Part shown: in pieces, positions 1-24,589 of the stretch
How the letters are laid out: every line of letters starts with the position of its first letter
Position numbering within the stretch: position 1 is the first letter of the stretch
Source: a bacterium
GTDB lineage: Bacteria > Patescibacteriota > Gracilibacteria > BD1-5 > UBA6164
Reading direction: 5' to 3'
Assembly (NCBI GenBank): GCA_024635485.1
Contig: JAGXIV010000037.1
Location: 1 to 41,553, forward strand
DNA length: 41,553 bases
Translations under genes and position numbers: made by a program
The notes under the pieces: model-generated
Told to the model about the DNA's origin: nothing
The model's input: only the letters and a program-made list of their open reading frames with translations
The model's database searches: none

Positions 1-19
1 AGATGTGTATAAGAGACAG
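1..19. other. Tn5/Nextera mosaic-end adapter remnant
   Basis: The first 19 bases are exactly AGATGTGTATAAGAGACAG, the Tn5 transposase mosaic end used in Nextera libraries. This is sequencing adapter left at a contig end and not genomic DNA. No second copy or reverse complement was seen elsewhere in the window. Genomic sequence starts at about base 20. Confidence 0.97.
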
Positions 20-59
20 GATTTGTCAGGATAATTTCAAGAAGAATTTTATACATGAA

Positions 60-995
60 TTAGATTTTTTTAAATAACTCTACTAATGAAGTATCAATAT
101 TTTTCAATATTTTGAAATCCGTTTTTTTATGATTTCCTATTCAGTCAATTAGTCCTATTATGTATTTTCAATCTAATTTTCATCAACGTTTTTGAAAAAT
201 ATTATTATAATCTCATCTAAAACTATCTTCTTCCCAACTACATGGATGTGATCTATCAGTAAAACTATAAAAGTGATTTTTATTGTAATTCTTTCCAATC
301 TTCTCTATTGCATATAATATGTATCTATAAAACTTATATTCAAAATTTAGTTGCCTATATCACTTAATGCTCTGTAAACAGGTTATAAAAATAGAATCTT
401 TTCACATAAATATGCTTCAAGTATAGACTAATTCGACTTCTTCCTGTTCATTTACTCTCTGCCCATTAGAAATATCTAATGTAATATTACCTTTAGAAAC
501 TCATCATTTAGTTCTAAAAATATTCACTGACAACATTCCTGCATTATCTTGCATTCAGTAATATTCTTGAGAGAGAGTATCTTGAAAAACATACATCCCA
601 AAACTCATTTCATAAGTGTAATTAGCATCTGAAATTATTGGAGAAGAAAAAATATTATTATAGTATGCTAATTTATCTTGTAAATCAGGAACAATATTAT
701 ATGCTGCAATAAAAATTTTATTCACTAGGAAATTTTCCAGAAAAAAAATATTTATAATAGTCCCCTCTAGATTTTGTGAAAAGAGTAACTCATAATGATG
801 AAAACGAAGAAAATTCTGTATATTTCACAGATGACGTTCTATATACTGAATATCATGAAGAATAAGATTTTTATGGCGTCATTTTCTTAATCACTCTTTC
901 CACAGAAGAGCTATATGCTTGAGTGCATTAGTTCAAAGTTGTTTGAGTATTATAAAATTTTCAGAAGTGATGGCATGTTTTCTTGTTTCACTCAT
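60..995 (-). CDS. DUF535 (VirK/YbjX)-like protein
   Basis: This is a 311-residue protein under code 25, with many in-frame TGA codons. The C-terminal half resembles the DUF535 family (VirK/YbjX): a FITCLQSIKGYRQ stretch at about residue 200 matches the family's IGGLQG-type block, YSFTDRSHP matches its (V)SN-x-SH block, and DYNNIFQKRGGKLDGKY at about 260-275 matches its DYD-x-FW-x-E-x-GG block. DUF535 has no settled enzymatic activity, although members are linked to virulence and peptide resistance. No signal peptide or membrane segment is seen. It is the last gene of the minus-strand Hxs-type operon, 5 bases after the upstream radical SAM gene. The family call rests on remembered motifs, so it is moderate. 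Confidence 0.6.
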
Positions 996-1000
996 AGTGA

Positions 1001-1936
1001 TTAAATAAGTATCCTTCCATTTCTATATTCCTCAACTTCAAATTTGTTCACCTGACAACCATATTGACATTTATTATTGTGGTGTTCACATCATTCACAC
1101 CACTTGGGAACTGTTTGTCTGAGTCTCTTAGTATGAGGTGAAAACTTTTGAATATAGGCTGACATATCATTATTCAAAAGGTATTTTATATCTGCTGTAA
1201 AAGCAAGAGGTGGACAAGGAAGTATGGTCTCTCCATCAGGATTGATAACAGTAAATGCATCCGTTTTCTCAAAAGAAGGCGTCCCACAAGTAGATACAAG
1301 ATTCATATTATACTTTAAATAGACATACTGCTTTTCAGTAAACATACATATGGGCATAGGACCGAATATTTCTACGTCAATTTTTTCTTCTTCTTTGAGC
1401 GCTCTAGCAAGTTTATAAAAATACTCTCCATTCTCAAGACTTGGTTCTTCACTAAATACGATTCAGAGTGATACCGGTACTTTTAGTTTTCAAAGAATTT
1501 TTTGTATCAAAATAGCTTGATATTTATTAATATCATAAAGGTTATAAATAAGACGGACTCGAGAATGCTTTGAATAATATGAAACATTTTTTATAATTTC
1601 TTTATGACGCGTCATAAAGAGGACATTAATATTTATAAGAAATCTGTCAGGCATTTCTTTAAGCTTAATCATTGCGTTCGACATTACCGTAGTAATCATT
1701 CACTCTTCTCGTGCAAATTTAATAGCTTCATTTATGTGCTTCCACAAAGCTGGTTCTCAACCAATAAATATTATATATCGGACTCCATTTTCTTTTAATT
1801 GAAGTAGGATTTCTTTATAACGCTCAAAAGAGAGTTCTATATTTTTATACGGAGCTATGTATTTCTCTGCATAACAATAATCACAATTTGTATTACATTC
1901 GTATGTTCCAACAAAGGCTATATTATCAAATTTCAT
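1001..1936 (-). CDS. Radical SAM/SPASM-domain protein
   Basis: This 311-residue enzyme has the radical SAM cluster motif C14-x3-C18-x2-C21 near its N-terminus and a GGEPALW motif (GGEP-type SAM contact) in the first 60 residues. The C-terminal third has the SPASM/twitch pattern: a cysteine in STCGTP, then an INPDGETILPC segment, and finally CEGCEHHNNKCQYGC, which supplies ligands for auxiliary iron-sulfur clusters. Such enzymes usually modify ribosomal peptides or enzyme side chains by 5'-deoxyadenosyl radical chemistry. It sits in an operon with three other radical SAM genes and a His-Gly-Ser repeat precursor, so a role in peptide maturation is inferred. The start is the ATG 7 bases after the upstream DUF3050 stop. 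The substrate is unknown. Confidence 0.88.
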
Positions 1937-1943
1937 AAATATC

Positions 1944-2765
1944 TTATTTAGTTGCTAGTATTTTTTCATTTATTGTATTGAGTACTCATAATCTCAGCTC
2001 AAAACTTCTAATTATTATTTCTAATGCTTTTTCAAAGTTCTCGTCACTGAGGAAATAAGCAAGCAATTCATATCATTTTTCACTATGTTCTCCTCCATCA
2101 AGATCTATATGTCTTTGAAGGTAATTGATAAAAAATGCGTTATTAGTTTTTCATCTCTCGGAAGTCTGAGTTACTATCGAAGTAAAAAAATCTGGAATAA
2201 GATCTTCTCTACAAAAGAAAAACGATGCAAGAGGCTGGAATATTAATTTATCTGGGTCTTCTACTATATTTGAAATTTCTCTCATATAGAGAAAATGCTC
2301 TTTGACAGATTCAGAAGGAAAGAAATTAGGCTGATGTAGGTCAAGACTTATATCATCTGACATTCTCACATGTCACATGGCTCTTTCAATATAATATAAA
2401 TCAGCTTCTGATTGTTCCATAGCCTTGAGGTAGTATTCGAAGTGAGATAAGTCGTTAATTTCGCTATCACTTTCTTCATCTAAAACAATTTCTGTAATAA
2501 GTCGTGAAAACTTACCAGGAACTTTAGGATACCAACAAGAAAAATTATTACTTCCTTTCTTATAGACTGAATTTACTCCAAACTGAATTGATTTTAAAAG
2601 TATCATAAAATCCCATACTTGAAAAACATGATGTTCCATGTACATACGAATATTTTTTTGGGAATTAATATTATTGAAAACATCATGCTGAACAATTGCA
2701 TTTCGTAATTCAGCAACTCTCGGATTACTTAAAATATCTTGGATATATAAACTATCGTATTGCAT
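1944..2765 (-). CDS. DUF3050 haem-oxygenase-like-fold protein
   Basis: This 273-residue protein matches the DUF3050 family: MEHHVFQVWDFM at residues 43-54, ITEIVLDEESD at 90-100, SHFEYYLKAM at 107-116 and YLQRHIDLDGGEH at 215-227. The helical pattern with E44, H45/H46, E97/E98, H108, H219, D223 and H227 resembles haem-oxygenase-like diiron oxidases, and DUF3050 has been placed in that fold. Metal binding and oxygenase activity are inferred. The gene is 7 bases upstream of a radical SAM/SPASM gene and follows a lipoprotein gene, inside the Hxs-type operon. An oxidative tailoring step on the modified peptide is one possibility. A glycine codon TGA lies at residue 131 and again at 205. Confidence 0.85.
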
Positions 2766-2774
2766 AAATTATAA

Positions 2775-3548
2775 TTAGTATGAAATCAAATTCTCTTCTA
2801 TATAGGCCTTACAACTTCCATTTCTATATGCTGTCGCCATAAGTATTATATAAAATAACTCTTCCGACCCTACTCACGTATCCTCGTAAATAGTTCTTAC
2901 ATTTTCATTATATATTTGCATATATTTATTATATGTATCTTCATCCTCTATAAAAGCAATATAAATACCTAAAAGTGCTAGTCTTCCTAGTTCTGCCCCT
3001 TCCCCATTAGGATCAATTTTTATTGATTCATAGCTTACTTCTTGGAGTGAATTGATATTATCGAAATTCTTAAATTTTTCAGGAAGTTTGCCATTAATCA
3101 TTTGATCTACCATTGTATATTTCTCTTCTTTTGATTCAGTTCCAGGACAATATCCATTTTCCACTGCATCATAAAAGTAATTTTTTAATGTAAACGCTGG
3201 AAGTTGAACTTTTTTTCATTCTTCTAGAACATAATCAGTTTCTCATTCGAAATATTGGCATTTTGTAACCAGAGAATCAACCACCTCTTTCGAGAAGACC
3301 ATATCATTTTTTAATGCAAATCGACTTGTTGATTTTTCACCTTCTACTTCACTATATGTACTGACTTCTACAACTGGATTTTCAGTAAGAAAATCATCTT
3401 GAGGATCTTCTGAATTTATAGGTATTTCTACATCGACTATTCCGCTACCTGCTGAACTACCAGATTGATTTTCAGTACTAGTTGCTACATTATTTCCACA
3501 AGAAATAAGTACAAAAAGGAGACATATAAATGCAAAAAATTTCATCAT
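2775..3548 (-). CDS. Predicted lipoprotein, unknown function
   Basis: This is a 257-residue protein with a clear lipoprotein signal: two Met, a basic residue, a hydrophobic core and a LISC box with Cys17 followed by Gly. A Ser/Thr/Asn-rich linker follows (about residues 18-45), then an acidic, mostly soluble domain with no motif I recognise. Two further cysteines (in KCQYF and NGYCPG) and one near the C-terminus (GSCKAY) could be structural. It would be anchored to the outer face of the cytoplasmic membrane. It lies between a radical SAM gene and the DUF3050 gene in the Hxs-type operon, so it may bind or present the modified product outside the cell. That role is inference from context only. 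Confidence 0.8.
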
Positions 3549-3625
3549 ATTTTAAGTTATAAAAATATATAATATATGGTTACAAATTGTAAGGTATTTC
3601 TAACTAATGTAAAATGTTTTCCCAT

Positions 3626-4525
3626 TTACTTTTCGAAAGAATATCAACTTTGAATACAGTCAAAACAATTTTTCTTCATACTTCAAGAACTATATTTCAT
3701 AAAATATTGCTCAGATTTTAAAAAATGCCGAAAAATTTCTTCTCTCGTATAACGAATATGAGAAATTTTTATATCTGAAAGAAAGCATACTGGATGATGA
3801 ATACGAATATATCACTCGATATCAAACTCTATCATATCTTTCATTTCAAGCTCTCCATTCTCCAGATTAAAAAAATCTGGATATATACATGTTTCAAAAT
3901 TACATCCATCTAGACTCTCCTTTGCTTTATTATTTGTAACTTTACTTGAAATACTCCCATGTATCCCCTTATATAGAAATTCATAATTAAAGTAATCCTC
4001 ACTTTTGGTTATTTGAATTCAAGATGTTTTTCGTATGAGTGGAAGGAGTTTTTCAAAATCTAAACTCATATCATATCGTACGGTATCTATATTCATATGC
4101 TCTAGCATTTTTGCAATTTTCAGAAAATCTAAAAACTCTTTCAAGGAATTAATATTTTTTGATAATAAAAAATGCATCTCTGGATATATCTTTGAGAGAG
4201 AGTGTAATCTCTGTAGATATTCTTTTTCAAAAAAAGAAGCATCATTAATTTGAAGTACTACTCATCTTGAGAGTTCTTTAATTTTCTCTAAATATATATC
4301 TAAATTTGTATGTAAAATAGTGTCTACTCAATACAGAAAATAGACAAAGTTTTCGGTCGTAACTTCATTCGCGTATACTATATTATCTAAAATTTTTTGA
4401 CTATCATAATCTTGATTTCATACTGTACCATAAAAGCACCCGCTACATTTTGTTGGGCACTTTTCTCCAAGTTTTATAAAAATCTCTGGAGCTTTGGCTG
4501 ATGAAGTAAAGATTATCTGTGACAT
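3626..4525 (-). CDS. Radical SAM domain protein
   Basis: This 299-residue protein has the radical SAM motif C23-P-T-K-C27-S-G-C30 followed by FYGTV. The usual GGEP motif is weak: the stretch after the cluster reads FVYFLYGVD. Cysteines near the C-terminus (DGCNFETC, HHPVC, and NCFDC at the end) may bind an auxiliary cluster, though the spacing does not match a textbook SPASM domain. It is an unplaced member of the radical SAM superfamily. The stop codon of the upstream Rossmann gene directly abuts its ATG, which indicates tight co-expression. Substrate unknown; a role with the neighbouring His-Gly-Ser precursor is inferred. Confidence 0.82.
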
Positions 4526-5254
4526 TTAAAAATCTTGAGAATAATAGAGTTTTATATTTTTTTCTTCTTGTAATAATTGCTCAAGAGCAAGATCAAAATT
4601 TATAGGGTCATTATATGTTTTATTCCCAAGAATTAAAACTCAGTCATGAGAAAATTTATATGTACTCTCTACATTTTGATACCGAAAAACAATTTCGTAC
4701 CTCATAGTATCAGCTTTTGTAGGAATAATTGTAGTAGTATATTGTAGAGAAAATCATAAAAAATTATTGTGTATATGCAAAAGCCCTACAGATTTTGATT
4801 CACAAGATGTATATTCATTCTCAGGGATATATAAGCGAATATGTATATTTGAGATGTGCTGTTCACTTTTACGAAGAAGTTTCGCAAAAAGTGTATAATA
4901 CTCTTCTAAAAAAAAACTAACATTATCATAATCCATAAGCGACTGTATCACCGTATTATCCCAACTTACTGGAGTATCTACAATAATTTTTCAGCTATAT
5001 CATTGATTTAAAATATTAAGAGCCGTTGTTCATTGAATTTTAACGGGAAGAGCTATGATAATGAGATCATATTCTTTAAAGTGAACTTTTCAGCTCAGTC
5101 ATATAATAACCTGTATATCATATTTTTTCGATATGAGTGACTGAGACGCTTGACTCTGACATACACCAGTAATATGAACAGGTTTATTTTGGAAAAAATT
5201 AATATACTTTTTTCACTGCTCTCCTACTCAGATAATAAGTATAGTATTAAACAT
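4526..5254 (-). CDS. Rossmann-fold (Gfo/Idh-like) protein
   Basis: This 242-residue protein begins with a beta strand and the dinucleotide-binding loop GVGEQG at residues 9-14, in the order expected for a Rossmann NAD(P)-binding domain. Later segments such as YDLIIIALP and GKIIVDTP look like the beta4 and beta5 strands of Gfo/Idh/MocA-type or prephenate-dehydrogenase-type folds. The C-terminal half is not recognised and is short for a complete Gfo/Idh oxidoreductase. The start ATG overlaps the upstream radical SAM gene by 8 bases and its TAA abuts the next radical SAM ATG, so translation is probably coupled. It may supply a redox step in the pathway, but nothing in the sequence shows the substrate. 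Confidence 0.65.
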
Positions 5255-6176
5255 GGAGTGTTTTTAAGCAGCTATCTCAAAAGAGCTCATAGTAATCTCT
5301 GGGAATTCACATACATTTTCCTGAAAAAATACAGTCTTTACATGTTTCTGTTTGAACACTATCGTAAGTCGCAGCATAATCATCTCGTTTCTCTCAAGTG
5401 ACCAGATGACTCACACGATCATTTTTTATATTATCCTTTATAAAAGGATAATATGTTTCCTCTATTACGCAGTATGGAATATTATCAATCACTACCTTCA
5501 GTTTAATTTTCTTACTAATATATAAAATTTTTTTTATATATGGGAGAGAATCCTTATATTCAACCATAAGGTCTTTCTTCTCTGAATTTGTAAATAATTC
5601 AAGAGAAGAACAGTAATTCAACTGACAACGTGTAATTTTAAATTTCCCTAAATAGAGAAATAACTTCAGAAGTTCCCTATAGTTTCATTTATACAAAACA
5701 GTATTTACATCCAAAACAAATGTTGTGTCTTGCGAAATAATATCATCTACATTACGTATTGCTGCATCTAAGTTCGCAAAGCTCGATGGAGACTGTGTAA
5801 TGTCATCATGAAGCTTGCCATATCAGTGAAATGAAAATATAACTCCCGTCAATCACCTCTCATACAAATCAGATACATATGATGTATCTTTGAGCCTAAA
5901 TCAATTGGTATGAATTCTTATATGCTTATATCATTGACTCTTAGCAAATGAAATATAGTGAGGAAGATTCTTATCGAGTGTTGGTTCTCCTCACGCAAAA
6001 ATAACAAAGCGTTTTCATTGCTCAAAACCATCCCTGAGAAGAGTTTCAACTTCACTTTGTGTTAAGTTATTTTTATATTTGAACCGTAAATCTTTTTGAT
6101 AGCAAAAAACACATCGTACGTTACACGCGTATCATAGAAATATTTCAAGCCCTTCAAGGTCTTTAATATCTTCCAT
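5247..6176 (-). CDS. Radical SAM protein next to HxsA; HxsC candidate
   Basis: This 309-residue enzyme has C18-N-V-R-C22-V-F-C25 at its N-terminus, AGGEPTLD as the GGEP motif and a HTNGF strand, typical of MoaA-like radical SAM proteins. Near the C-terminus CKDCIFSGKC plus a final cysteine (GDSC) could hold an auxiliary cluster. It starts 9 bases after the precursor gene stop, which is where a second maturase would be expected. Classical His-Xaa-Ser systems have two radical SAM enzymes, HxsB and HxsC, so this is the HxsC candidate by position. I do not recognise diagnostic HxsC residues, so the name is not assigned. The coding sequence contains a 12-bp perfect inverted repeat. Confidence 0.85.
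5428..5454. repeat. Perfect 12-bp inverted repeat inside a CDS
   Basis: ATATTATCCTTT at 5428-5439 and its exact reverse complement at 5443-5454 are separated by three bases. It lies within the radical SAM gene at 5247-6176, where it encodes a segment around YYPFIKDNI. In RNA it would form a stable hairpin on either strand. No U-tract follows it on the minus strand, so it does not look like a terminator. Confidence 0.85.
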
Positions 6177-6185
6177 AAGCGCCTA

Positions 6186-6590
6186 TTACCATCTACTTCC
6201 ATGACTTCCATGACTTCCGTGACTTCCATGACTTCCATGACTTCCATGACCAGTGATAGTATTTATTCATCCATTAGGAGTAAATTGAGCTGATGGGGTA
6301 GAGCTAAAATGTCCATTTACAATTCAACTTGCATGATTTACTTTACAAACTCATGCATTATCATAATCGATATCATAATTCATTTTAAGTCCATTTGAGG
6401 CTGGTGATAATCCATCAGATTTCGTTTGATTAAAGTGTTCAAAAGCAGCAGATGCCTGATCTGCACTGGCAAAAAGAAGAGCTCAAGCACTTATTCATAA
6501 TGCATCTTTTTTTGTTATTTTTCCACTCTCGTCAGTAAGAAAATTTTTGAGTGATTTTTTAAGTGCTGGAAATTTTTTGTGTACTGCCAT
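6186..6590 (-). CDS. hxsA: His-Xaa-Ser repeat precursor (HxsA-like)
   Basis: This 134-residue protein is the likely substrate of the operon. It has a basic N-terminus (KKFPALKKSLKNFL), a short hydrophobic, Ala-rich stretch (ALGISAGALLFASADQASAA, residues about 30-49), a middle region with HAS and HFS, and a C-terminus of six exact His-Gly-Ser repeats followed by RW. The His-Xaa-Ser rule with Xaa = Gly fits the HxsA family, whose repeats are believed to be modified by radical SAM maturases. The Ala-rich stretch ending in ASA could be a leader or an export signal. It lies between HxsB and another radical SAM gene. HxsA is not known to be an enzyme. The Gly codons in the repeat are GGA, not TGA. 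Confidence 0.85.
6195..6248 (-). repeat. Six 9-bp repeats encoding His-Gly-Ser
   Basis: Six tandem copies of a 9-base unit (CATGGAAGT on the coding strand) make up the 3' end of the precursor gene. All are identical except the fourth, which uses CAC in place of CAT for His. The near identity at DNA level suggests recent expansion or replication slippage, so copy number may vary between strains. Confidence 0.95.
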
Positions 6591-6675
6591 AATTTATATT
6601 TGAGTAACTAATAGTTAGTATTATAGAAATTTTTACATAATTGCAAAAAAGCTCTCTTTACTTCAATTCTCTTTC

Positions 6676-8127
6676 TTATCTACCTATCCAGGACATCAAG
6701 ATTTTTTTATCTTCAGGATTCTGTAATTTTTCAAAAATAGTATCTAAAATAGCTATCTGTAGCTTCATTTTTTCATCTTTTACAAGAGGAGTATAGAGAT
6801 TTCCATCTATTTTATAATTATGAATAATATCTACTCATAAGTATGGTTTATAGACATGATCATTGTATCATGGAAGTCCATCTAATGTACTTGATTGGAC
6901 CGCAATTTTAGTAATATCACTGTTCATCATTCTATTATACGTTTCTTGACCAGAATCACCCACATCTGTCATAAAAAAAGTATCATCTCACATTCTTCCA
7001 AGCATTCTTGATTCATCACTCGCATAGATTTTTCCATCATAGTTATAGGCTACTCATCCAATAGCTATACCACTTGGACTTCGAATATCCATAAACGCTG
7101 GATCAAAAGCATTAAATATCTTTTGAAGATATATGCCTGTAATTTGCTCTCTAAATTGTTTTCACTGTTTATTAATCTCTATAATATAATCAAGGGATTT
7201 TCTATAGAAATCTATCCATTCATCTGATTCATATGCAAGAGTTTCCATATCACTTGCCGCAAATCCATAAGGATTAAGCCATCTCAAGAAAATACCATCA
7301 AGTCATAAATTAATATAGGTATCAATTATTTCTTTGTAGCGAGGAAGTGTTTGTTTTGTTACGGTAAGAAGTGCTCCAATTTTTCAAAGTCCTCTTTTTT
7401 GTTTTTCCTCATCAACTCTTTTAAGCCAATACGTTACAGATTCAAAACTATTTCCATCAAAACCGGTTCTATTTGCATTATGAGACAATTCATCTCCATC
7501 AAGGCTGCTACAAATATCAACTCAGTTATCTAATAACCATTTCAATTTATCCTCTGTCATAAGCGTCAGATTTGTAACAATAGAAAAAGTCAGTTTTTTA
7601 TCAAGATGTAGAGCTCTTTGTCCTGCATATTCAACTATATATTGTACAATTGGATAATTCACAAGTGATTCTCCACCCTGAAATTCTATAGTAAGACTTG
7701 GAGAGTTTGTATATAAAATTGCATCGACTACTTTTTTTGCAGTTTTCTCATCCATATCAAATTGTTTTGCGCTCATAGGAGCTACTGCTGCATGACAATA
7801 CTTACATTTATGATTACATCTGAGAGTAGTTACAATCATATGAAGCGTTGGTCCTACTCATACAAAATGATGTTTTCCTGCAACACTTCAAACCATTCTC
7901 TCTTCATAAGATTCATTTTTTATAAATCCTTTTTTCACGAGCTCCTCAAACTGATTCCCTACATCAATATTTCCAAGTATAAATTTCTGAAAATCATCGT
8001 TACTAAAAAAGTGAAACTTTCCAGCATCATTCGTTATAAGATAAGTATTTTCATTAAATTTTTTAAAACGGAAATATCCTATTTTATCCTTTGGAATTTT
8101 ATCAATCGTTTTTGTGTCTAAATGCAT
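6676..8127 (-). CDS. hxsB: His-Xaa-Ser system radical SAM maturase HxsB
   Basis: This 483-residue protein matches HxsB along its whole length: an N-terminal TYLITNDAGKFHFF segment, the HMIVTTLRCNHKCKYC core with C104, C108 and C111, IEFQGGESLVNYP, TNLTLMTEDKLKWLLDN, ICSSLDG, an IRSPSG-x-AIGGVAYNYDGKIYASDESRM block and a C-terminal IFEKLQ...MSW ending. HxsB is a radical SAM enzyme paired with the His-Xaa-Ser repeat protein. The oddity is in the expected auxiliary-cluster region (about 412-435): where SPASM-like domains have several Cys, this one has T414, Y421, H424 and L430. The start is the ATG 4 bases after the small upstream gene; TGA is read as Gly many times. Confidence 0.93.
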
Positions 8128-8131
8128 AGGT

Positions 8132-8317
8132 TTATATTGAAAGGAGGTAGTTCATAAATTCTCTAAAAATCTCATCAGATTCTTCGCTGTTTTCTGCAGA
8201 AATAGAAATTGCTCAATCTTTATAATCTATTTTTGCTACATCAGAAAAATCTTTTATAGATTCTTGAACTGAATCATTTGAGTAGATTTCTGATGATATT
8301 TCATATTTTTTCTGCAT
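8132..8317 (-). CDS. Small HxsD-like protein (61 aa)
   Basis: This 61-residue open frame lies between hxsD and hxsB, with 8 bases to the gene upstream and 4 to the one downstream. Its pattern (IYSNDSVQESIKDFSD, a short strand DYKDGAISISA, then EIFREFMNYLLS) repeats the order of HxsD: an initial helix, one or two strands and a helix ending in EF-x-N-x-LL. It looks like a shortened HxsD paralogue. It is too small for a catalytic domain and could be an adaptor that delivers the precursor to the maturase. One in-frame TGA (Gly35) supports code 25. The relationship to HxsD is by eye. Confidence 0.72.
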
Positions 8318-8325
8318 GGGAATAT

Positions 8326-8889
8326 TTATTGTTTTTTAAATTTGTTCTTCATATCTGCTACTGCACCGGGATCAGCTATAACTTGTGGTTTAGCAAGTTC
8401 TGTTTCTTCTTCAATTTCTCGAAGTATATTTTCTATTTCTTGTTCATCAATCTTAAGGTCAGGGTCATTTTCTATTTCTTTTAAGATATCATCAATATCT
8501 CTATCAAAATCTATTTCATCTTGCTGAGAGTTATTTGTGTTATCTGTATCGAGAGAAACATAATTCTGAAAATCAAGTGGTCCATTAATGGCCTTAGTTA
8601 CAATAGTTTCACGAATAACTTTATTATCTTTTTCGAGTTTATCTCTCAAGTATACATTTAAGAGTTCATCAGAAAATTCTCATATGATATGTTTTGGATC
8701 TTCTGTAATATCTTGTTTTGTTGTAAACTCTAAAATAATATTTTTATTTCCATCAAACTTGAAGAAAAAATATCATATATCAAGAAAATTATAGGCAGCT
8801 TTTAAAATAACGTCTTTTGGAAAAATATTTGTATCTATCAGGAGTTCAAATTTTTCTCCATCAATTTTCTCACTTAGAAATTGACTCAT
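8326..8889 (-). CDS. hxsD: His-Xaa-Ser system protein HxsD with acidic tail
   Basis: The first half (about 90 residues) matches HxsD: IFPKDVILKAAYNFLDIGYFF, then a strand, then IGEFSDELLNVYLRDKL, the family's LLNDYLRE signature, followed by IRETIVTKAI. The second half (about residues 105-187) is an added acidic, helical tail rich in Asp/Glu with paired helices (DDILKEIENDPDL and IENILREIEEE), unlike the short classical HxsD. HxsD is an accessory protein of the His-Xaa-Ser system with unknown activity. It is the first gene of the operon. The ATG at 8889 is chosen because homology begins shortly after it; a GTG at 8958 in the same frame would add 23 residues. The in-frame TGA codons fall in DIGYF and IIGEF. 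Confidence 0.88.
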
Positions 8890-8958
8890 GGGTTTAAAAG
8901 GATTAATGTATATGGTTTTTTTTGTACTCAAAAAGTATATTGCTTTTTGAGCTATCAC

Positions 8959-11397: not shown

Positions 11398-12699
11398 TTA
11401 TCTCACAAAAATCCAAACGTCGTGTTCCCAACTTACATCATATCCTGGTTGACCTGATACAATTCCCCAAGGATTTGAGTCATACCTTGCTCCAGTTCAT
11501 AGTCCATCCCCAGAGAGAAAATCCCGAAAAGCAAGCAAATAACTTGAATTATGTGGTGTAGGTCTGAGTGACCATTGAGTTCAATGACACTGTATTTGAT
11601 TACTAACTAAGTAGCTTCAATTAATACTGGTCTTATACGAAAATTCAGTACTGCTTCCAAAAAAATTACTACAAGGAACAATAGGCCCCATATACATACC
11701 ATTCATAAACTTATCATATTTTAATTGTAAAAATTTTGAATTAGTATTTGCTGTACTCACGTTTGAGGTATCAAAGAGTACCATCATTTCTGTATGATAT
11801 AATTGTGCCATATTTAATGCATAGGTTTCATTTGTATCCTCCATTGATGAAGTATAGATTCACATTGGAGCATTAAAAGATATCTCAGTTCCATTTGTAT
11901 CATTATCAATATGGGCTGCAAAAGTCCATCCCCCTCAATCAGTAGTCATATCACAATATACATCTATAGGTTGGACTCAAGATGGATTTATTTTTTTGAT
12001 TCAAGACTGAGTAGATCACAACAATGCTTTAATCCCCTTGCAGCTTGTGTTTGGAACTATTCCCACATAATCATTTCAATTCGCTCATACAATCTTATTC
12101 TGAGTCGTAAGATACGATACAAATGAGCCCGTAGAGCTTTGTAAATCTAAGCCATTATCTAATATAACACTTTCAAGTTTATGTATAGGTATATTTGTAG
12201 TTTGTTGCATCAAAACTCAGATCTCAGATCCAAAAACTCATGGGTAGAGGGAGCTGTAACTACTCAAATTTTCTGCAGCATGCACATTATTTCCAAGGAC
12301 GAATGTATCTGTGTTTTTTTCTTCAAAAAACGCAAGTATTTGACTGCTTTTTCTATCAGCTGAAACTATATAAGTAAAAAAATCTTTTGATTTTGGATCT
12401 CTTCCTCCATCAGAATATTTAATAATATCAAGCACAGATTGATCCAAATCTCACTGAGTTCAGATTTGAGCTCCAGAAAAACTCACTGCTACCATATCAG
12501 CAGAAAGTGGGATTTTTTGTCGAGTAGCATGAAGTTCTAATGCCTTATGGAGAGATGAAATTTGTTCAAGTCTGCTTCCATCTCTGACTCATCTTAAATA
12601 GTCTGTATATGACACAAAACCAATACTTGATAAAATTGCTACAATTGTGATTACAACAATGAGCTCAACAAGAGTAAATCCTAAATTTAATTTTTTCAT
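11398..12699 (-). CDS. Type IV pilin-like protein with fibrinogen-like domain, copy 1
   Basis: This 433-residue protein has a class III signal (GFTLVELIVV, with Gly7/Phe8 cleavage and Glu at +5) and a long hydrophobic N-terminal helix as in type IV pilins and pseudopilins. A globular region follows, then a fibrinogen-like module from about residue 222: SCKGIKALL, INPSGVQPIDVYCDMTTDGGGW and a C-terminal DVWIFVR. That order (Cys, SG-x-Y-like strand, VYCDM, DGGGWT) is the signature of the fibrinogen C-terminal superfamily, known for binding surface ligands. It is last in a six-gene run with 7 bases between it and the next copy. An adhesive pilus subunit is inferred. Confidence 0.85.
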
Positions 12700-12706
12700 T
12701 ATTTTT

Positions 12707-13999
12707 TTATCTTATATAAATCCACACATCATTTCAAAAAGAATTTGTTGTGCTTATACCATCCCATTCTCCATTGAGCCATCTCCAAGCATCAGAGGAC
12801 CATCGAGTCCCAGCAGTAGTACTTTCTCGAAAATATAACAAGTATAAACCTAAAGGACCTCATGTTGGATTATAATCTTGTGGTCTAACATACCAAGCTG
12901 TTCAACATCATCAGACTTTACTTGACATATATTCTCATCATATTTTAGTTTTATGAAATAAAATATCAGAGGATCATAGTGGATTCGGGCATGAACTTAG
13001 AGTTGCTGTATGGAACATAGGAGCATCTAATCCATACCGAAGCATAAGAAAAGAATTAGTATTATTCGCCTCTTGAGGAGATTTTGTATTGATGAGTGCC
13101 ATCATTTCAGTATGTTCAAATTGAGACATATCCAAAAAATACTCAGTTCACGTATCTTTTCTCTCTACATTATAAGTTCATACGGCAGAAGCAAAAGAAA
13201 TTTCAGAAATTGCACTCCCTCCATCTACATGACCAGCAAAAGTCCAACCACCTCATTCTATATCCATATCACAATATACTTGAAGAGTTGATGAACCGTT
13301 TGGAGAAATAAGATATTTTCAACTTTCTCATGCCTTTCCAAGATCTTTTATTCTTTTACAACTCTGGTTCGGAATCATCTCAGTGAGATCATCAAAAGTT
13401 GAATCTAAAAATTGAGTATCAGAAAAGTAAGACAAGGTTGTTTCAGTTCATGTAACAATATCATAGGAATTTCAGACAATATTTGTAAGTTTATTGAGTG
13501 GGATTTGAGTATTTTTTTCTAGCATAATACCAAGAGGGCTTCAAACAACCTTAGGAAACATATTTATATAATCTATAGTGTCAGCATGAGTACTTGGGAG
13601 AAAAGTAAGAAGTTTTGAATCTCAAATATATCACATTAGTTGAAAATCACGTCCAGTGTGAGTTAACATATATGTATATGGAACATCATATTCTGGATCT
13701 AGACCTCCACCATCATATCAAATAGCCTTCATTACGTTAGATCCTGCAAGTCCTTGATATGCAAATAATGAGCCATTTGCTGAAATTTCTACTGCATCTT
13801 CTGGAAATGGAAGTTTTGTTTGTGAACTTAATATTTTTAATCAATCACGTATTTCATTGAGTTGTACCATACGATTTGTATCTCTACTTCCAGCTAAATA
13901 TTGCTGGTATGTCGTAAATCATACTGTTGAAAGGATTGCAAGAATTGCAATCACTACAATTAGCTCCACAAAGGTAAAAGCTCATTTATTTTTTATCAT
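12707..13999 (-). CDS. Type IV pilin-like protein with fibrinogen-like domain, copy 2
   Basis: This 430-residue paralogue has the pilin start MIKNKGAFTFVELIVV, where the residue before Phe is Ala, not the usual Gly; prepilin peptidases often accept Ala there. The middle domain carries GGGLDPEYDVPYTY, a block shared by all six copies. The fibrinogen-like part includes SCKRIKDLG, SPNGSSTLQVYCDM, EGGGWTFAGHVDG and a DVWIYIR ending. It differs from copy 1 over much of the C-terminal domain, which suggests diversification of binding surfaces. The upstream gene stops 7 bases before its ATG. No alternative start is plausible, because the nearby ATG at 14007 meets TAA after two codons. Confidence 0.85.
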
Positions 14000-14006
14000 A
14001 TTTTCA

Positions 14007-15305
14007 TTATCTAACAAATATCATTCCATTTTTTCAATCTAGATCTCAATCAACTCAACTATTAAATCTATCTGATCTCAAACCATATATACTTTTTCAA
14101 TTATTAATTCAAGAGTTCACAGCTGTTGAATAATATCTAAAATAATATCATTCATATCTATGTCCACTCACTCTCCCTCAATCAGCAATTTCTCTATCTG
14201 TGTAATCAATATTTCACCATTTGCTTATATAGTAGCCTGTTGTCCCCTCATTATCACAAGCACTTGCCCAGGTTGTTAGAGGAAATAATTCCCTACAGCT
14301 TCCAGGAACTGTAGAACTAGCGCTTGCATATTGGCTAGCATCTTTAATATAAAGTGTATCACTTATTTCAAAACTTAAAGCATAATCAATAGTTTTACCT
14401 GTAGTAAAAGAAGCTAACATAATTTCAGAAAAATTTAGATTTTTTGATGACTCTCAAAGTGAATATGGCTTAGACTCATCTTGGACATTCCCACCTTCGA
14501 CCATCCATCAAAAGTCTTTATACAATGCATCAACAGGACTTGATCTCGCTACTAAAGTCCAACCTCAACCATCCATTTGCATATCACAATATACTTGAAT
14601 TATTTTTTTTCAACTTGGATTTATAACATACAAACCACTTGTAGCACTTGGTAGCAATAATTTATGAGTTTTGCAACTAGAGTTTGGTACGAGTCATAAA
14701 AATTCATCATTATTTCAACTCAAAACTCTCGTATTTGATAAAATTGCTACTAAATTAACCTGAGTCCCCGAAACATCTATAACTGAACCTGTTTCATATA
14801 CTGGATTTCGATGTATTGGCATATTAGTAGTAGTATCAATAATTACCCCTAACTCTCATCCATAGACGTAAGGATACATATCCTCTCATGCAGCATATGT
14901 ATTCTCTAGTATAGAAATATTTTGTGATGATTTTGATTCTAAAAATGTAAGTATTTGTATGTTTTTTCTATCAGCACTCGTAAAAAAAGTAAAAAAATCT
15001 TTTGTACGAGGATCTACTCCTCCATCTGAATATCGAATAATATCAAGAGTATCTTGATTTATATCTCATTGATATCAAGCAATAGCTCCATTATACTGGA
15101 TAGTTTTTGTTCATTGTGAAAGAGGAAAGAGTGCACGAGTAGTATAGAGTTCGCTTGCACTAAACAAGCTAGTAACTTGTTGAATACGATTTGAATCTCT
15201 GACTCCTATTAAATAATTTGTGTATCCTATAAATCAGAGTGTGGAAAGGATTCAAACAATTGTAATCACCACAATTAACTCAACGAGTGTAAATCATTTT
15301 TTCAT
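14007..15305 (-). CDS. Type IV pilin-like protein with fibrinogen-like domain, copy 3
   Basis: This 432-residue paralogue begins MKKGFTLVELIVVITIV, a textbook class III signal in which the critical Gly at -1 is encoded by TGA. The fibrinogen-like part has SSCKTHKLLLP, INPSGKKIIQVYCDM, DGGGWTLVARSS and GMIFVR at the end. The C-terminal domain is closer to copies 4 and 5 (GWM-x-E-x-G, YSLGE, LNFSEIMLAS) than to copies 1 and 2, so the cluster contains two or three subtypes. Extra cysteines (GSCREL, SACDNE) are spaced as in a disulfide pair. Location is expected to be the cell surface after N-terminal processing. Confidence 0.85.
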
Positions 15306-15316
15306 ATATTTTTTAT

Positions 15317-16606
15317 TTATCGAACAAAAATCATTCATTCTGTATTTCCTATATCTCCACTTCCTTCATCAGTAAATTTATTAGCCCTTAAGCCATAGAG
15401 TGAAGAAATATTATTAGAGTTAGTTGGATTAGAGTAGTATCGAAAGAAGAATCATTCATCTCGAAATCAAATTTTAGTTTCATCACTTCGATAGCTTATA
15501 AATCACCAATTAGCGTGAGCAAATACGTTTCATAACTTTTCAACATCACAAGAACTATTCCAGTCAACTCAATCTTGTGAAAATTCTCTACAATTAGATG
15601 TGGGAGATGATACAGCATAATTATTCGAATCAACAATATAGTCATCGTCTACTCAAATTACAATTGCCTTATCCGGATTTTTCCCATTTTGATAACTTGC
15701 TATCATTATTTCTCTAAAATTTAACTGAGTAGAAACTGGTCAAAGAGAATATTTATCAGTATCGTTATTTATACTTCAATATTCAATCATCCATCCAAAA
15801 TTTAATGGTGCTGCATTGATATGACTTCTTCAAACAAGAGTCCATCATCAACCCGCAAAAAGCATATCACAGTAAACTTCTTTTTTTCATCCATTTACTA
15901 AATCAATAATATAGTTTCAGTTTCCTCGAGCACTTCATAGTTCTTGAATTCTATTACAACTGGAAGCTTGAGAGAGAAAAAACAGATTATCTCGACTTGA
16001 ATCGAATTTAATTTTATCTGATTTATACATATAAACACCTCCAGTTCAGTTTATAACATCATACGTATTATTTATAGGAAGCTCAGACCTTTGAAGAGGT
16101 GTTTGAGTAGCTTTATCTACTATAACTCATAAGGGTTTTCCTGCAGTTTTAGGAAATAAATTTCAATATTCAATAACTGCAGCATGAACTCATAATACTC
16201 AAGCACTAGAAAGTAAATTTACATCCGATACATAGGTTAATAGCTGAAAATCTTTTCCATTATCAGCTAACATGATCGTTAAGAAAGTATCAAACTCTGG
16301 ATCAAGTCCTCCTCCATTATAATCTATTGCTTGAATTATTTTTTCATCTACATCTCATTGTATCGCGTATGAACTTCAGCTCATTGTGATATTTACTAAG
16401 TTTGCAGGAAATGGCAGTTTCGTTGTTATACTCAGACGCTCTAATCAATCATGCACATCATTGAGTTGTACAATTCTATTTGAATCATAACTTCAAGATA
16501 TATATTCTTGATAGGTCACAAAACCTACAGTCGCTAAAATAGCTAAAATTGTAATTACAACTATAAGCTCCACAAAAGTAAAAGCAGGTTTATTGGTTCT
16601 ATACAT
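15317..16606 (-). CDS. Type IV pilin-like protein with fibrinogen-like domain, copy 4
   Basis: This 429-residue paralogue begins MYRTNKPAFTFVELIVV, with Ala before Phe at the processing site. The shared middle block reads GGGLDPEFDTFLTI. The fibrinogen-like part has SSCNRIQELG, EVYCDM, AGGGWTLVGRS and EGMIFVR at its end. Two of the three glycines of GGGWT are TGA codons, which shows that reading TGA as Gly restores a conserved motif. The 11-base gap to copy 3 and lack of any terminator between copies support one transcript. The N-terminal helix would polymerise; the C-terminal module would be displayed. Confidence 0.85.
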
Positions 16607-16610
16607 TTTT

Positions 16611-17900
16611 TTATCTTACAAATATCATTCCTTGTTTGTTTTCCATAACTCCTAAACCATCTCAAGTAGTCTTATTCCATCAACTTGATTCCATTCAATA
16701 ATGTAAAGTTGCACTATTTCTTGCATATTCATCAAAAAAGTAATGTGTATCATTAAGAAGATTATCAGTTGAATAATTCAATAATCCCCAAAAAACAAGA
16801 GCACTATGATCCGTCGTCTTTCAATCCTGTCAGGTTATATCACAAGGACTCATCCAATTTGAAATTGGATACACTTCCGTACATCCAATACCACGAGAAA
16901 ATGTTCAATAATTACTTGAATTTTTAATATAATTCTTATCAATACTCGTTTTAGCTGCATATTCTATATTTTTTCATTCAACATAAGAGCTTATCATAAT
17001 TTCTCAAAAACCTAAAGTTGTTGATTCTTCTCAAAGTGAGTATGCTGCATTGTTATCTCTTACTGTTCATGTTTTTGACAACCATCAAAAATTATTAGGT
17101 GAAGAATTGTTACTACTTCGAGCTACAAGAGTCCATCATCCACCATCAATTTCCATATTACAATAAACTTCAAATGGACTGAGTCACGATGGATTAATAT
17201 TATAGATCCCATTTCCAAAACTTCATCATGTTTCAAGTATTTTTTTACAGGTAGTATATGGAATGATTCAAACAAGATTGGATTCTTTTCATGAAATGAG
17301 ATAGCTATCTGTTATGTATGCGTCAAATAAATTTGTAGTACTATCTTGTAAATCTATATAACCACTTTGTGAATATTCACTCATTTCTTGCAAGGGAGTA
17401 TTTGTTTTTTGTTCTAAAAGAATTCAGAGTTTCTTTCAAAAAACATTTGGATATCTTTGAGAATAATCTTCTGCAGCATAGGTTTGAGTCAATGTATTTG
17501 AAATAACATCTGAATTATATTTTTCTAAAAAACCAAGCAATTGAAAATCTTTTCTATTTCGAGAAAGTAAGTAAGTGTAAGGAGTTTCATCAAGTGGATC
17601 AAAAGTATTTTCACTGTAAGCAATGGATGAAAGTACATTTTTTCAAGCATATCCTTGGTATAAAAACGCTGTTCCACTATTTCGAATTTCTACCGCATCA
17701 TCTGGAAGTGGAAGTTGTCATTTCGTAATAGCAAGCCTCATACCATCCCTCAGACCTGAGAGTTGAGCAAGTCTTTTACTATCTCTCGTATCACCAAGAT
17801 AGTTTTCATATGATATAAATCCAACTGTCGCAAGGACAGAAAGTATAACTACGACTACCATTAATTCTACTAATGTAAAAGCTTTAAAATTTTGTTTCAT
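16611..17900 (-). CDS. Type IV pilin-like protein with fibrinogen-like domain, copy 5
   Basis: This 429-residue paralogue begins MKQNFKAFTLVELMVVVVIL (Ala at -1, Glu at +5). It has the shared block TPYTYLLSRNRKDFQLLGF, then TTCKKILETGGS, INPSGLSPFEVYCNM, DGGGWTLVARSS and QGMIFVR. VYCNM replaces VYCDM. It is 4 bases upstream of copy 4, the tightest spacing in the run. It shares the C-terminal YSLGEESTTLGFGEIMISSY block with copies 3 and 4. Function as a minor or major adhesive pilus subunit is inferred from domain layout. Confidence 0.85.
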
Positions 17901-17918
17901 AAATTATTTTTTTAAAAA

Positions 17919-19253
17919 TTAGCGAACCATAATATAAGAACTGAACCCTTGGTAAGCTTTATCAGAAAAGGTATCTCAACAAGACAGTCCATCTTGAAAA
18001 TCATCAAACCCATACGAGTTGCTGCTTCAACCGTTAGCTCTTGCATCTGTAAATGATATTTTTCATCATGTTGTTGAACTTCAAATGGTAGTAACTGGGT
18101 TATGAGGAAAAGTATTATTAGGAGCATCTGTCTTAATATATCCTGTAGAAACAGAAGAACTACTACCACAATAAATAAGATTTAGATTTTGAAATCTATC
18201 CAGCTTCTTTATATCACTACTCGCAGGAGGAATAATATATGGTGTAGTAGCTGGAATTCTTTGGATAGAGTTCCATTCAAGATATCTGTATGTTTTTAGA
18301 TTTTTAAAGCTTCCCTCATAGACTCACCATACAAATTCACTAAACTCTAAATCAGATGCAGCTACTACAAAGTCACTTCAAGCTTTCAATGTACCACAGG
18401 CATGTCATGCGAATCAAGAAAGTCTTGGATAACATTTATTAGTAGTATCGCTGATAAATTCATCATCAGAGTTATCATTATTTACTAATATACTCCATCC
18501 ACCTCCGTCAGTTCTCATATCACAATAGACTTGTATTTGTGTAACTCAATTAGGAGAAATAGTATATACACCGTCACCAGTAGATTTTCACATTTCAAGT
18601 ATTCTTTTACAACTTTGATTTGGAATAATACTGAGAATATTTGTACTATTTACTTCATAAAAATCATTAGAAGATTTGAATGCTAAAAATGTTCAGGTAC
18701 CTGTTACAATATCATATTTTCAAGCAGAAAGATAGGAATCAATGGTTTGAATAGGTGCACTCGTTTGAGAGTCAAGCAGTATTCATAAAGGTTTTCAAAT
18801 AGTAATTGGGAAAACTGTTTCATAATCAACAAATGCGTGAGTTTGAGAAACAAAACTTTGAAGACTCGCATTGTCTTCTACAAAGTTCAATAATTGAAAA
18901 TCTTTTCTATTAGAATTTAGAGAATACGTTGGATAGGTCTCGTACTCTGTATCGAAAATATCTCATTTGTATCAAATAAGATTTGCCATCTCGTTTGTAA
19001 TAAATCATTGATAGGCAAAAACTTTTGAGCTCGCTTCGAGTGAGACTTTGTTTTCTGGTATTGGGAGTTTAGAGAGTGTTGAAAAAGTAGAAAGACTTTG
19101 ATGAATCCCTTGAAGCGTCACTATACGTTTTGTATCTCTTCAAGTCCCTAAATACGACTCATAAACAGTAAAACCGATTGTTGCAAGTATGGCTATAATA
19201 ACAAGCACGACAATAAGTTCTACAAAAGTAAATCAAGATTTATTCTGTCGCAT
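17919..19253 (-). CDS. Type IV pilin-like protein with fibrinogen-like domain, copy 6
   Basis: This 444-residue protein is the first gene of the pilin run. It begins MRQNKSGFTFVELIVVLVII with Gly at -1 (TGA codon). The fibrinogen-like part has QSCKRILEMGKS, SPNGVTQIQVYCDM, TDGGGWSILVNND and ends SSYIMVR. Its C-terminal domain has several extra cysteines (NKCYPR, HACGTL, IYCGSS, LSCGDT) absent from the other copies, so it is the most divergent member. The promoter for the operon is probably in the 123 bases upstream, which also hold the rpsU terminator. Confidence 0.84.
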
Positions 19254-22031: not shown

Positions 22032-22808
22032 CTAATTTCAAGAATATATAGAATACTCCAAAATACCGAGAAATTGTGTATTATCTAGCTTAGTTTCAAG
22101 GTTTTGAGTGTATTTTCAAAGCTTTGCTGACGATGTAATTATAGCTCTTGGCTTCGTAATATAGTCATCTCAAGAACTTAATATATAGTCTTTTGTAGTA
22201 TCAGTTGAGTTTTTAAGTTGTAAATAACTTCATGAATTCGATGAAATAAAATCCTGAACAGATTGAGAGGCAGAAAAACTAAAGTCAGGATTTCAAGATA
22301 TCTCCAATTCTTTTTTTCAAACAGCAGTGAATTTGTTTATAGCTCAAATTCCAGATAATCATGAATTATCTCAGATTATATTCCATCCTAAATCATTCGG
22401 AGCATCCAAAAGTAGCTGGGTAGCAGGAATAATTTCACCTGAGTCTCAGATAGAAAAAAGTGGAATTATATCATTTTGATAAGCTTCTATACTTCAGCTA
22501 AAGCTCTTCACTCTTGAATCAAAACTATAAGACATAATTGGATCTTTCGTTCATTCTCACAAGATCTTAGCGTCACTTAGTTCACCGTAATATCCATATC
22601 CATTTTCTTTTATTTTTAAGAGAGCCAGTTCAAGTCATCCTTCTGCTGCTGAATATGCCTTCATATAATCTTGATTTCCTTTTCCATTAAACATTTCTTG
22701 GATAGATAAATTAAGAGTTGTAGTTGTTAGGACTAGCAAAAAACCAATAGTAAGTACTGCAATAATAATTGAATATCCCTGATTATTTTGTATTTTCGTA
22801 GATTTCAT
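22032..22808 (-). CDS. PilX-like minor pilus protein
   Basis: This 258-residue protein begins with a short basic segment, NNQGYSIIIAVLTIGFLLVLTTT, a class III-like signal where Glu+5 is replaced by Ile, as often seen in PilX/GspK-type minor pilins. AYSAAEGGLELAL is the hallmark block of PilX (YSAAEAGLE). The rest is unrecognised. It is the last gene of the pilus assembly operon. The ATG is 4 bases after the upstream stop; a TTG 18 bases earlier is in frame but overlaps the upstream gene. Expected at the pilus tip complex. Confidence 0.8.
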
Positions 22809-22812
22809 AAGT

Positions 22813-23430
22813 TTATTGTGTTTCAATTAATTTTTGACTCACTGTGGTCTGAATATTTATTTCATTACGAATAATAATATCTGAACTCATTCATTGGTAT
22901 GCTGCAGGTCGAAGCGTAAGCTGTATAAAGAGTTTTGGCATATCCTTGTTAGTTATAATAAACTTCAAATTCTGAAAAGCAACGAAGCCATTAGTTAATG
23001 GATAATAATCTCAGGCAGGATCTTTTTTAATGATTCTACATATTTGATTTATTTCTTGGCATTGATTTTTGATATCACTACTTCTCTCCCACTTACCAGT
23101 AAGTTCATTTTCAAATCAGATAGTATAGACTGATCCTCATATACAAACTCCTGATTCTTGTTCTATTTCTTCTCAACTAGTGAGATAATCAGTACAAGAT
23201 TCTGCAAATCCAATCGTTCATTCAAGTCCATTTTTCCTAACTCATTCTGCGATATTTTCTAAAACATTTTTTGCATTTTCTTGCATAGTTCGATTCAGTT
23301 CTACTCTTGTTGACATTTGAGTTGCAAAAAGAAAAATAGAGACTACAGCGACTAAAATCATACTTAAAATCGTAATAGAAACGATGAGTTCTACCAGAGT
23401 AAATCAAATAATATTTTTTTTGTTTTTCAT
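22813..23430 (-). CDS. PilW-like type IV pseudopilin
   Basis: This 205-residue protein has NIIGFTLVELIVSITILSMILVAVVSIF, a class III signal with Gly/Phe cleavage and Glu+5, followed by the helix LNRTMQENAKNVLENIAEGVRKNG, which fits the PilW/GspJ minor-pilin pattern of a long amphipathic helix. Several cysteines (ESCTD, GVCIGG, NQCQEINQICR) may form disulfides. It lies 4 bases upstream of the PilX-like gene and is expected in the priming complex of the pilus. Confidence 0.8.
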
Positions 23431-23439
23431 TATTTTTTA

Positions 23440-24054
23440 TTAAATTCTTCTCCAATCAGCAACAACAGTATCTATATAAAATTCATGGTATCCTCGTTTA
23501 TACCAAATAACTTTAGACCGTACTTTATAGGCGTTATCTATACTCACTTTTGACACGTCAATGACTGGTTCAAGAAATAAGTATCTATAAAAAGGAGTCT
23601 TTACAGCATCTCAACTACAATCAGAGCTATACATTCCTTCACTATCCATACATAATTGATAATTCGTCATAGTGGCCAGCTTATCTTCTCATTCCTGAAA
23701 AGATGTTATCTCATGTACTGATATAGAAAAATTATCAGATACGTTAAAGTTATTTTCTAAGGTATAGTATTTCCCTGTTTCAAATAAGTTTGAACTCTCA
23801 TCGTAAGCAATATTTGGATTCATTTGATTCCAAACATTTAACTGAGTATAGTTCGTATCACGTATATTTTTAAAAAGCTCGATTTGTTCACGTGCGAGAT
23901 TAGAAGCGATTATCGCATTTTTAGAATAATCACTTGTATTAAGTGAAGATGCAAGAAGTGCATAGATAGAAACAAGTCAGAGTGAAAATATAAAAATACC
24001 CACCATAACCTCTATGATAGAAAATGCTTTATATGATGTATATTTTTTAACCAT
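23440..24054 (-). CDS. PilV/GspI-like type IV pseudopilin
   Basis: This 204-residue protein starts MVKKYTSYKAFSIIEVMVGIFIFSLGLVSIYAL, with AFSIIEV as the class III signal (Ala at -1, Glu+5) and the LG-x-x-x-x-ALLASSLN pattern of PilV/GspI minor pilins. The remainder is a beta-rich globular domain ending VIWYKRGYHEFYIDTVVADWRRI. Its start overlaps the FimT/GspH-like gene stop by 8 bases, showing translational coupling. It probably forms the tip complex with the other pseudopilins in this run. Confidence 0.82.
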
Positions 24055-24580
24055 TATTGCCAATTATATCAGAAATAAATGCATCCGTTCTATATCTAAT
24101 GGTACTTTGTAGTACTGGACTTTCGGATCACTGATATGAAATATTAATATCAATCGTACTTTCAGAAGTATAACTTCAACTTCACGTAATAGCATGAAAT
24201 TCGAATAAATATGGACTACTCTCTCAAGCAACTGAATCAATTTGTATTCCTTGAGGAAGCTTTTTAGTTTTATATTTATAAGCCTCTTTTAATGTATTTA
24301 TATCCATATTTTCTTCCAATGGGTATGCGTAGTATACAATATCTGTAGCTCCTGAAGAAAAATAGAGTCATATATTTAAATTCCCTGATCACGTATCAAG
24401 TCAATGCAAGGCAAAGTTACGAGCTTCTGTCATACTTTGAGTTACTTCTCGAGCTCACTGTCGTAAAAGTGTCTTTTTTTGATGATGAGCATATGGCATA
24501 TACGTCACAGTCATAATAATCATAAGTATAGTTATGACAACAAGAAGTTCTATGAGAGTAAAGGCTTTATTTTTTTGCAT
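24047..24580 (-). CDS. FimT/GspH-like type IV pseudopilin
   Basis: This 177-residue protein begins MQKNKAFTLIELLVVITILMIIMTVTYMPY, a classic class III signal with Ala/Phe cleavage and Glu+5. The next helix (LRQGAREVTQSMTEARNFAL) fits GspH/FimT, in which a Q-x-L-x-x-A-R-x-x-A pattern is common. A beta-rich C-terminal domain follows. It lies 9 bases after pilC and overlaps the PilV-like gene. Confidence 0.83.
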
Positions 24581-24589
24581 ATGAAAATA

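Follow-up and report, generated by a model that had tools for sequence, protein, structure and literature searches.

HxsB of a Gracilibacteria His-Xaa-Ser locus: a SPASM-type radical SAM maturase without the cysteine ligands of either auxiliary cluster

The HxsB protein encoded in the window (the whole stretch of 41,553 nucleotides analyzed here) probably descends from a three-cluster SPASM enzyme that lost its auxiliary iron-sulfur clusters stepwise, kept the protein shell that once surrounded them, and now would catalyze a reaction that does not yield a thioether. The role of the auxiliary clusters of SPASM enzymes has been called largely enigmatic (PMC10470005). HxsB is a previously annotated group in the SPASM network, and maturation of the HxsA precursor relies only putatively on HxsB and HxsC (PMC9062424). 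In the open-access literature, no paper was found that deals with the clusters, product, activity or iron content of HxsB.

The hxsB gene and its genetic code

The hxsB gene (6676..8127, minus strand) encodes a radical SAM maturase of 483 residues belonging to a His-Xaa-Ser system. Its reading frame is open only when TGA, which occurs ten times in frame, is read as glycine. At the TGA positions 275, 322, 380 and 431 most HxsB proteins of standard-code outgroups contain glycine, which shows that code 25, the SR1/Gracilibacteria code, is the right one. The protein matches the HxsB model TIGR03978 with 483.5 bits (cut-off 370) over positions 3-466 of the 466-position profile. The match to PF04055 (Radical_SAM; 49.8 bits, cut-off 29.5) and the CX3CX2C motif place it in the radical SAM superfamily. 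This motif, C104-C108-C111 (7795..7818, minus strand), which serves the radical SAM cluster, is intact and is invariant in all full-length homologues. C206 is the only other cysteine, and none is found beyond residue 300.

The original prediction described C104, C108 and C111 as intact and listed T414, Y421, H424 and L430 at positions expected to carry cysteine. These residues are exactly as described; their codons are TGT, TGT, TGT, ACA, TAC, CAT and TTA, respectively. A wrong genetic code that masks cysteines was ruled out, as no ligand codon is TGA and TGA sits on conserved glycines. A pseudogene was ruled out by the intact frame and the strong constraint on the protein. Chance or sequencing error was likewise dismissed: the replacements are identical in 16 genomes and the ligands are lost all or none, and the occurrence of the cluster-free HxsB in 16 separately assembled genomes excludes an error of sequencing.

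Lost ligand positions

For comparison, 70 HxsB proteins were aligned, 68 of which were complete enough for classification. They came from Gracilibacteria genomes, plasmids, phages, viral contigs and two other genomes of the phylum (L066 and L067) whose HxsB genes contain no in-frame stop codons. In the viral contigs, a scan with a single protein retrieved no relatives, and a query with the alignment retrieved ten. The full form of HxsB displays the motif C352-x12-G-x4-C370 ... C421-x2-C424-x5-C430-x2-C433 ... C454, which is the SPASM ligand set; columns 421, 424, 430 and 454 belong to auxiliary cluster II and columns 352, 370 and 433 to auxiliary cluster I. In a family profile alignment, the cluster II columns correspond to C317, C320, C326 and C348 of anSMEcpe, which are the cluster II ligands of that enzyme; column 370 corresponds to C276, one of the cluster I cysteines named for anSMEcpe (C255, C261, C276 and C330; PMC5715301), and column 352 to a cysteine of CteB. 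The most complete form of HxsB, L066, exceeds the Pfam cut-off for SPASM.

In the window protein, the SPASM set CX9-15GX4C...CX2CX5CX3C...C is replaced at all seven positions, by S352, S370, Y421, H424, L430, D433 and M454. The former cluster I segment (7018..7074, minus strand) contains S352 (7072-7074) and S370 (7018-7020) in place of cysteine. In the former cluster II segment (6829..6867, minus strand) are Y421 (6865-6867), H424 (6856-6858) and L430 (6838-6840), together with the former cluster I ligand position D433 (6829-6831). M454 (6766..6768, minus strand) occupies the column of the fourth and last cluster II ligand, which corresponds to C348 of anSMEcpe and is cysteine in 21 of 21 outgroup proteins. 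Nor does HxsB of the window fit the Twitch type with its single auxiliary cluster, as there is no cysteine after residue 300. As judged from its sequence, the protein has cysteines to ligate the SAM cluster and no other.

An alignment of homologues, proposed with the original prediction as a check, confirmed that the family normally has cysteine at columns 421, 424 and 430, namely in all 21 HxsB proteins from outside the Gracilibacteria, and among the 68 aligned proteins no conserved replacement cysteine was found in the C-terminal half; both results that had been named as refuting the prediction thus failed to appear. The list of positions was correct with respect to these three cluster II ligands. 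It wrongly included T414, since column 414 is no ligand position and is cysteine in just 4 of the 16 window-clade proteins, and it overlooked M454 and the loss of cluster I at 352, 370 and 433. The predicted single iron-sulfur cluster agrees with all that the sequence would allow; it is not a peculiarity of the window protein, as cluster II is absent throughout the canonical Gracilibacteria HxsB proteins.

It is very improbable that S352, S370, D433, Y421 and H424 take over from the cysteines and hold a cluster or another metal. Such a role has a precedent in PqqE, where an aspartate ligates an iron of cluster II (PMC5715301), and D433 is invariant in the window clade. However, residue 430 is hydrophobic and residue 454 variable within the clade, and HxsB proteins of other phyla that lack cluster I have alanine, asparagine or threonine at 352 or 370. 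With such variable residues at the former ligand columns, no complete set of non-cysteine ligands has been kept.

Four cluster states in one family

The 68 HxsB proteins fall into four states: 6 have the ligands of both auxiliary clusters, 17 those of cluster II only, 29 those of cluster I only, and 16, including the window protein, those of neither. The cluster-II-only proteins originate from Proteobacteria, Cyanobacteria, a Leptospira phage and viral contigs; the cluster-I-only proteins are all from the class Gracilibacteria. All four cluster II cysteines are present in 21 of 21 HxsB proteins from outside the Gracilibacteria and in 0 of 45 canonical Gracilibacteria proteins. The cluster I cysteines occur in 35 of the 68 proteins. 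In the window clade they are replaced by serine, at 352 in all 16 members and at 370 in 15, the remaining one having glycine. Column 370 is mostly serine in both groups that lack cluster I, and column 433 is acidic in both: aspartate in 16 of 16 proteins with neither cluster, and aspartate in 15 and glutamate in 2 of the 17 cluster-II-only proteins.

In 67 of the 68 proteins, the ligand cysteines of each cluster are either all present or all absent. The sole mixed case, L069, has retained C352, has S370 and D433, and has an intact cluster II set; it looks like an intermediate stage on the way to a protein without cluster I. Two divergent Gracilibacteria paralogues from code-25 genomes, L052 (G029:C16) and L053 (G047:C117), have retained all seven SPASM cysteines, and the genome G029 contains a cluster-I-only HxsB copy in addition to the paralogue with all ligands. 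No hxsD was recognized in the vicinity of these two paralogues.

The possibility that an organism reading TGA as glycine had given up cysteine or iron-sulfur assembly in general was considered and ruled out by three facts: SufB/D was found in the genome, the neighboring radical SAM proteins retain CX2CX5C, and the code-25 paralogues L052 and L053 retain all seven ligands.

Order of cluster loss

Phylogenetic trees of HxsB were built without the ligand regions, and their root is not independently fixed. The 16 proteins with neither cluster form one clade (bootstrap 100, SH-aLRT 96) that is nested among the cluster-I-only proteins. The simplest account of the sequence tree is that cluster II was lost first, in the canonical Gracilibacteria line, and cluster I later, in the window clade. 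The cluster-II-only group stands separately on the tree, which makes two losses of cluster I probable. Given the root as stated, the tree does not support the idea that the window clade and the cluster-II-only proteins share one ancestor that already lacked cluster I. How many times cluster II was lost is uncertain, given the long branches of L054 and of the paralogues L052 and L053. The cluster state is not strictly bound to the genus: genus g4 includes cluster-I-only proteins (G035, G044 and G046) as well as proteins with neither cluster (G010 and G028). As far as can be read from these proteins, loss of the clusters is a trait of lineages and is not peculiar to the HxsB of the window.

Constraint and predicted fold

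Within the window clade, consensus is 94% in segment 345-380, 90% in segment 414-437 and 88% in the radical SAM core segment 95-160, which comprises the CX3CX2C motif and EFQGGE; the two emptied segments rank as the best-conserved parts of HxsB. Between the window protein and its relatives within the genus, dN for residues 345-460 is 0.10-0.15 and dS is above 0.9, which is near saturation and makes the dN/dS comparison a rough one. These comparisons reveal that the emptied cluster segments are under strong constraint, with purifying selection.

An AlphaFold model of the window protein, calculated with 13 sequences, reached a pLDDT of 87 and a pTM of 0.87; an input of four close sequences gave a pLDDT of only 50. 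The best structural matches of the model are CteB (Z 35.7 over 404 residues) and anSMEcpe (Z 35.2 over 360 residues), the match extending through the SPASM part. Residues 91-483 of the model align with residues 2-384 of anSMEcpe. The fold is thus, in prediction and not in a solved structure, that of a complete SPASM enzyme. Conserved emptied segments together with a complete predicted SPASM fold argue for a maintained, putatively single-cluster enzyme rather than one in decay.

The hxs locus and its variable cassette

Upstream of hxsB lies hxsD (8326..8958, minus strand; TIGR03976, 59.6 bits, cut-off 50), and downstream the gene of an HxsA-like precursor (6186..6590, minus strand) with a conserved leader and an (HGS)n-RW tail. 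The precursor scores below the cut-offs of the HxsA3/HxsA4 models (NF038309, E 1.4e-9; NF038313, E 1.6e-6) and belongs to a single family across the relatives. HxsD and a His-Xaa-Ser precursor are therefore adjacent to hxsB. In the position of hxsC is the gene of a radical SAM protein (5247..6176, minus strand) with a C-terminal CX2CX5C...C motif that reaches only 69 bits with TIGR03977 (cut-off 268). None of 79 relatives contains an HxsC above this cut-off, and HxsB is not paired with HxsC in the window. Pairing with HxsC is a habit of the system that lies outside the protein model, and the window protein is still an HxsB. Further along the minus strand are a GFO/IDH-like NAD-binding cassette protein (4526..5254; PF01408, 25.6 bits, cut-off 24), a divergent radical SAM-like protein with the sequence CPTKCSGC (3626..4525; PF04055 below threshold) and a radical SAM protein that has kept the CX2CX5CX3C motif (1001..1936; PF04055, 53 bits).

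In window positions 1-8958 and the related loci (L078-L117), a constant HxsD-HxsB-HxsA trio is followed by further radical SAM genes, as many as about nine, which vary greatly and differ even among the species of one genus. The HxsA precursors of L078-L117 have a leader in common (FPKLKKKIKGFLTDESGKISKKDALGL-like), and most of them terminate with (HGS)n-RW or -QW; those of G026, G058 and G033 (L086, L110 and L114) have tails made up largely of Ser-Gly repeats that lack histidine. The cassette is apparently an interchangeable set of maturases for one precursor family. A second stretch rich in radical SAM genes in the same genome (L120; G000 contig C22, 1-8000), with seven CX3CX2C open reading frames in 8 kb, is perhaps a continuation of the window cassette across a contig break. 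Elsewhere in the window, six proteins of 429-444 residues are encoded in tandem (11398-19253, minus strand). At the N-terminus they resemble type IV pilins (N_methyl), and their C-terminal domain is similar to Fibrinogen_C; for 15317-16606 the Fibrinogen_C score does not reach the cut-off. Additional pilus-type genes are located beside them at 22032-25666.

The constancy of the trio amid variable radical SAM genes, together with the progressive loss of clusters, would suit an HxsB that is a non-catalytic scaffold presenting the precursor to interchangeable radical SAM enzymes. This is rather doubtful, as a scaffold would need neither the CX3CX2C motif, invariant in all full-length members, nor EFQGGE, both of which lie in the conserved core segment of the clade.

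The original prediction had also envisaged a partner that supplies the second cluster. In the version considered here, HxsB would form a complex with a radical SAM protein of the cassette, for example that encoded at 5247-6176, whose auxiliary cluster would take or give the electron. The neighboring radical SAM proteins have retained their CX2CX5C motifs, TrnC and TrnD form a working complex in the thuricin CD system (PMC12093266), and for PapB and QueE the transfer of electrons from one radical SAM protein to another has been documented (PMC10470005). Arguing against a partner is the poor conservation of the candidates: within the genus, HxsB proteins are 72-79% identical, whereas most of the 19 radical SAM proteins of the cassettes lack homologues in the sister loci (as seen in stretches of about 8-20 kb, in which distant genes may be missed). 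Moreover, a search for a ferredoxin-like gene near hxsB in the loci of the clade yielded none that stands out, and similar cassettes occur in genomes whose HxsB retains cluster I. A partner is thus an unlikely explanation.

The changed chemistry that had been predicted as the alternative to a partner is not borne out by the presumed substrate. The His-Gly-Ser tail of the precursor is identical in kind in the cluster-I-only genomes, and therefore the tail does not account for the difference in clusters.

A possible mechanism

In the scheme we favor, the ancestor would have been a three-cluster SPASM enzyme. The canonical Gracilibacteria lineage would have lost cluster II, and the window clade would later have lost cluster I, with the SPASM fold staying in place and the emptied pockets remaining under constraint. 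HxsB of the window presumably still cleaves SAM and abstracts a hydrogen from the HxsA precursor, and it would contain no cluster for binding a substrate thiol or relaying electrons. The HGS tail of HxsA offers no cysteine for such binding. Holding the precursor would be the sole role left to the SPASM shell. The most economical guess is that the reaction is redox-neutral or passes an electron to an external acceptor.

By analogy with PapB, HxsB should generate the 5'-deoxyadenosyl radical and should not form a thioether via a cluster-bound thiolate. PapB without AC1 or AC2 still forms 5'-deoxyadenosine; without AC1 it makes no cross-link, and without AC2 it cross-links once, in a single turnover (PMC10470005). 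SAM cleavage is therefore possible without auxiliary clusters. Against catalysis by HxsB is the published finding that TrnC and TrnD are dead as double cysteine mutants. If HxsB resembled these mutants and PapB without AC1, a SPASM enzyme devoid of its auxiliary clusters may no longer be a catalyst.

Comparison with known systems

Artificial deletion of clusters yields proteins that are unstable or mostly dead. In HxsB, evolution removed the clusters one by one and left the precursor tail unchanged, so that conserved proteins of each state can be compared directly and natural deletion mutants are available for asking what purpose auxiliary clusters serve in SPASM enzymes. The chances are about even that HxsB constitutes a natural deletion series whose members, with both clusters, cluster II alone, cluster I alone or none, all act on one kind of His-Xaa-Ser precursor. 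In this series, cluster I would have been lost in two separate lineages, each with an acidic residue (D/E) at 433, and HxsB without auxiliary clusters would be a functional peptide maturase with a single cluster. If this is true, the SPASM fold can function as a cluster-free holder of the substrate.

HxsB of the window resembles the known HxsB proteins in its full-length match above the curated TIGR03978 cut-off, in the upstream hxsD and in the downstream HxsA-like His-Gly-Ser precursor. It differs from the HxsB proteins of plasmids, phages and viral contigs, which have kept cluster II or both clusters, whereas it has kept neither. The second-best NCBIfam model for the window protein is that of the ranthipeptide maturase PapB (NF047865), whose ligand spacing, C352/C370/C421 and C408/C411/C417/C440, is very similar to that of HxsB; PapB, unlike HxsB of the window, contains both auxiliary clusters and forms thioethers. 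Among solved structures, the SCIFF maturase CteB (5wgg) and anSMEcpe (4k36) come closest in fold, with a match that includes the SPASM domain; they too bind two auxiliary clusters, in contrast to HxsB. The Twitch enzymes MoaA and BtrN, and TrnD, resemble HxsB in having fewer auxiliary clusters than a full SPASM enzyme. Twitch enzymes bind one auxiliary cluster, whereas HxsB of the window would bind none and yet is predicted to adopt a SPASM-type fold.
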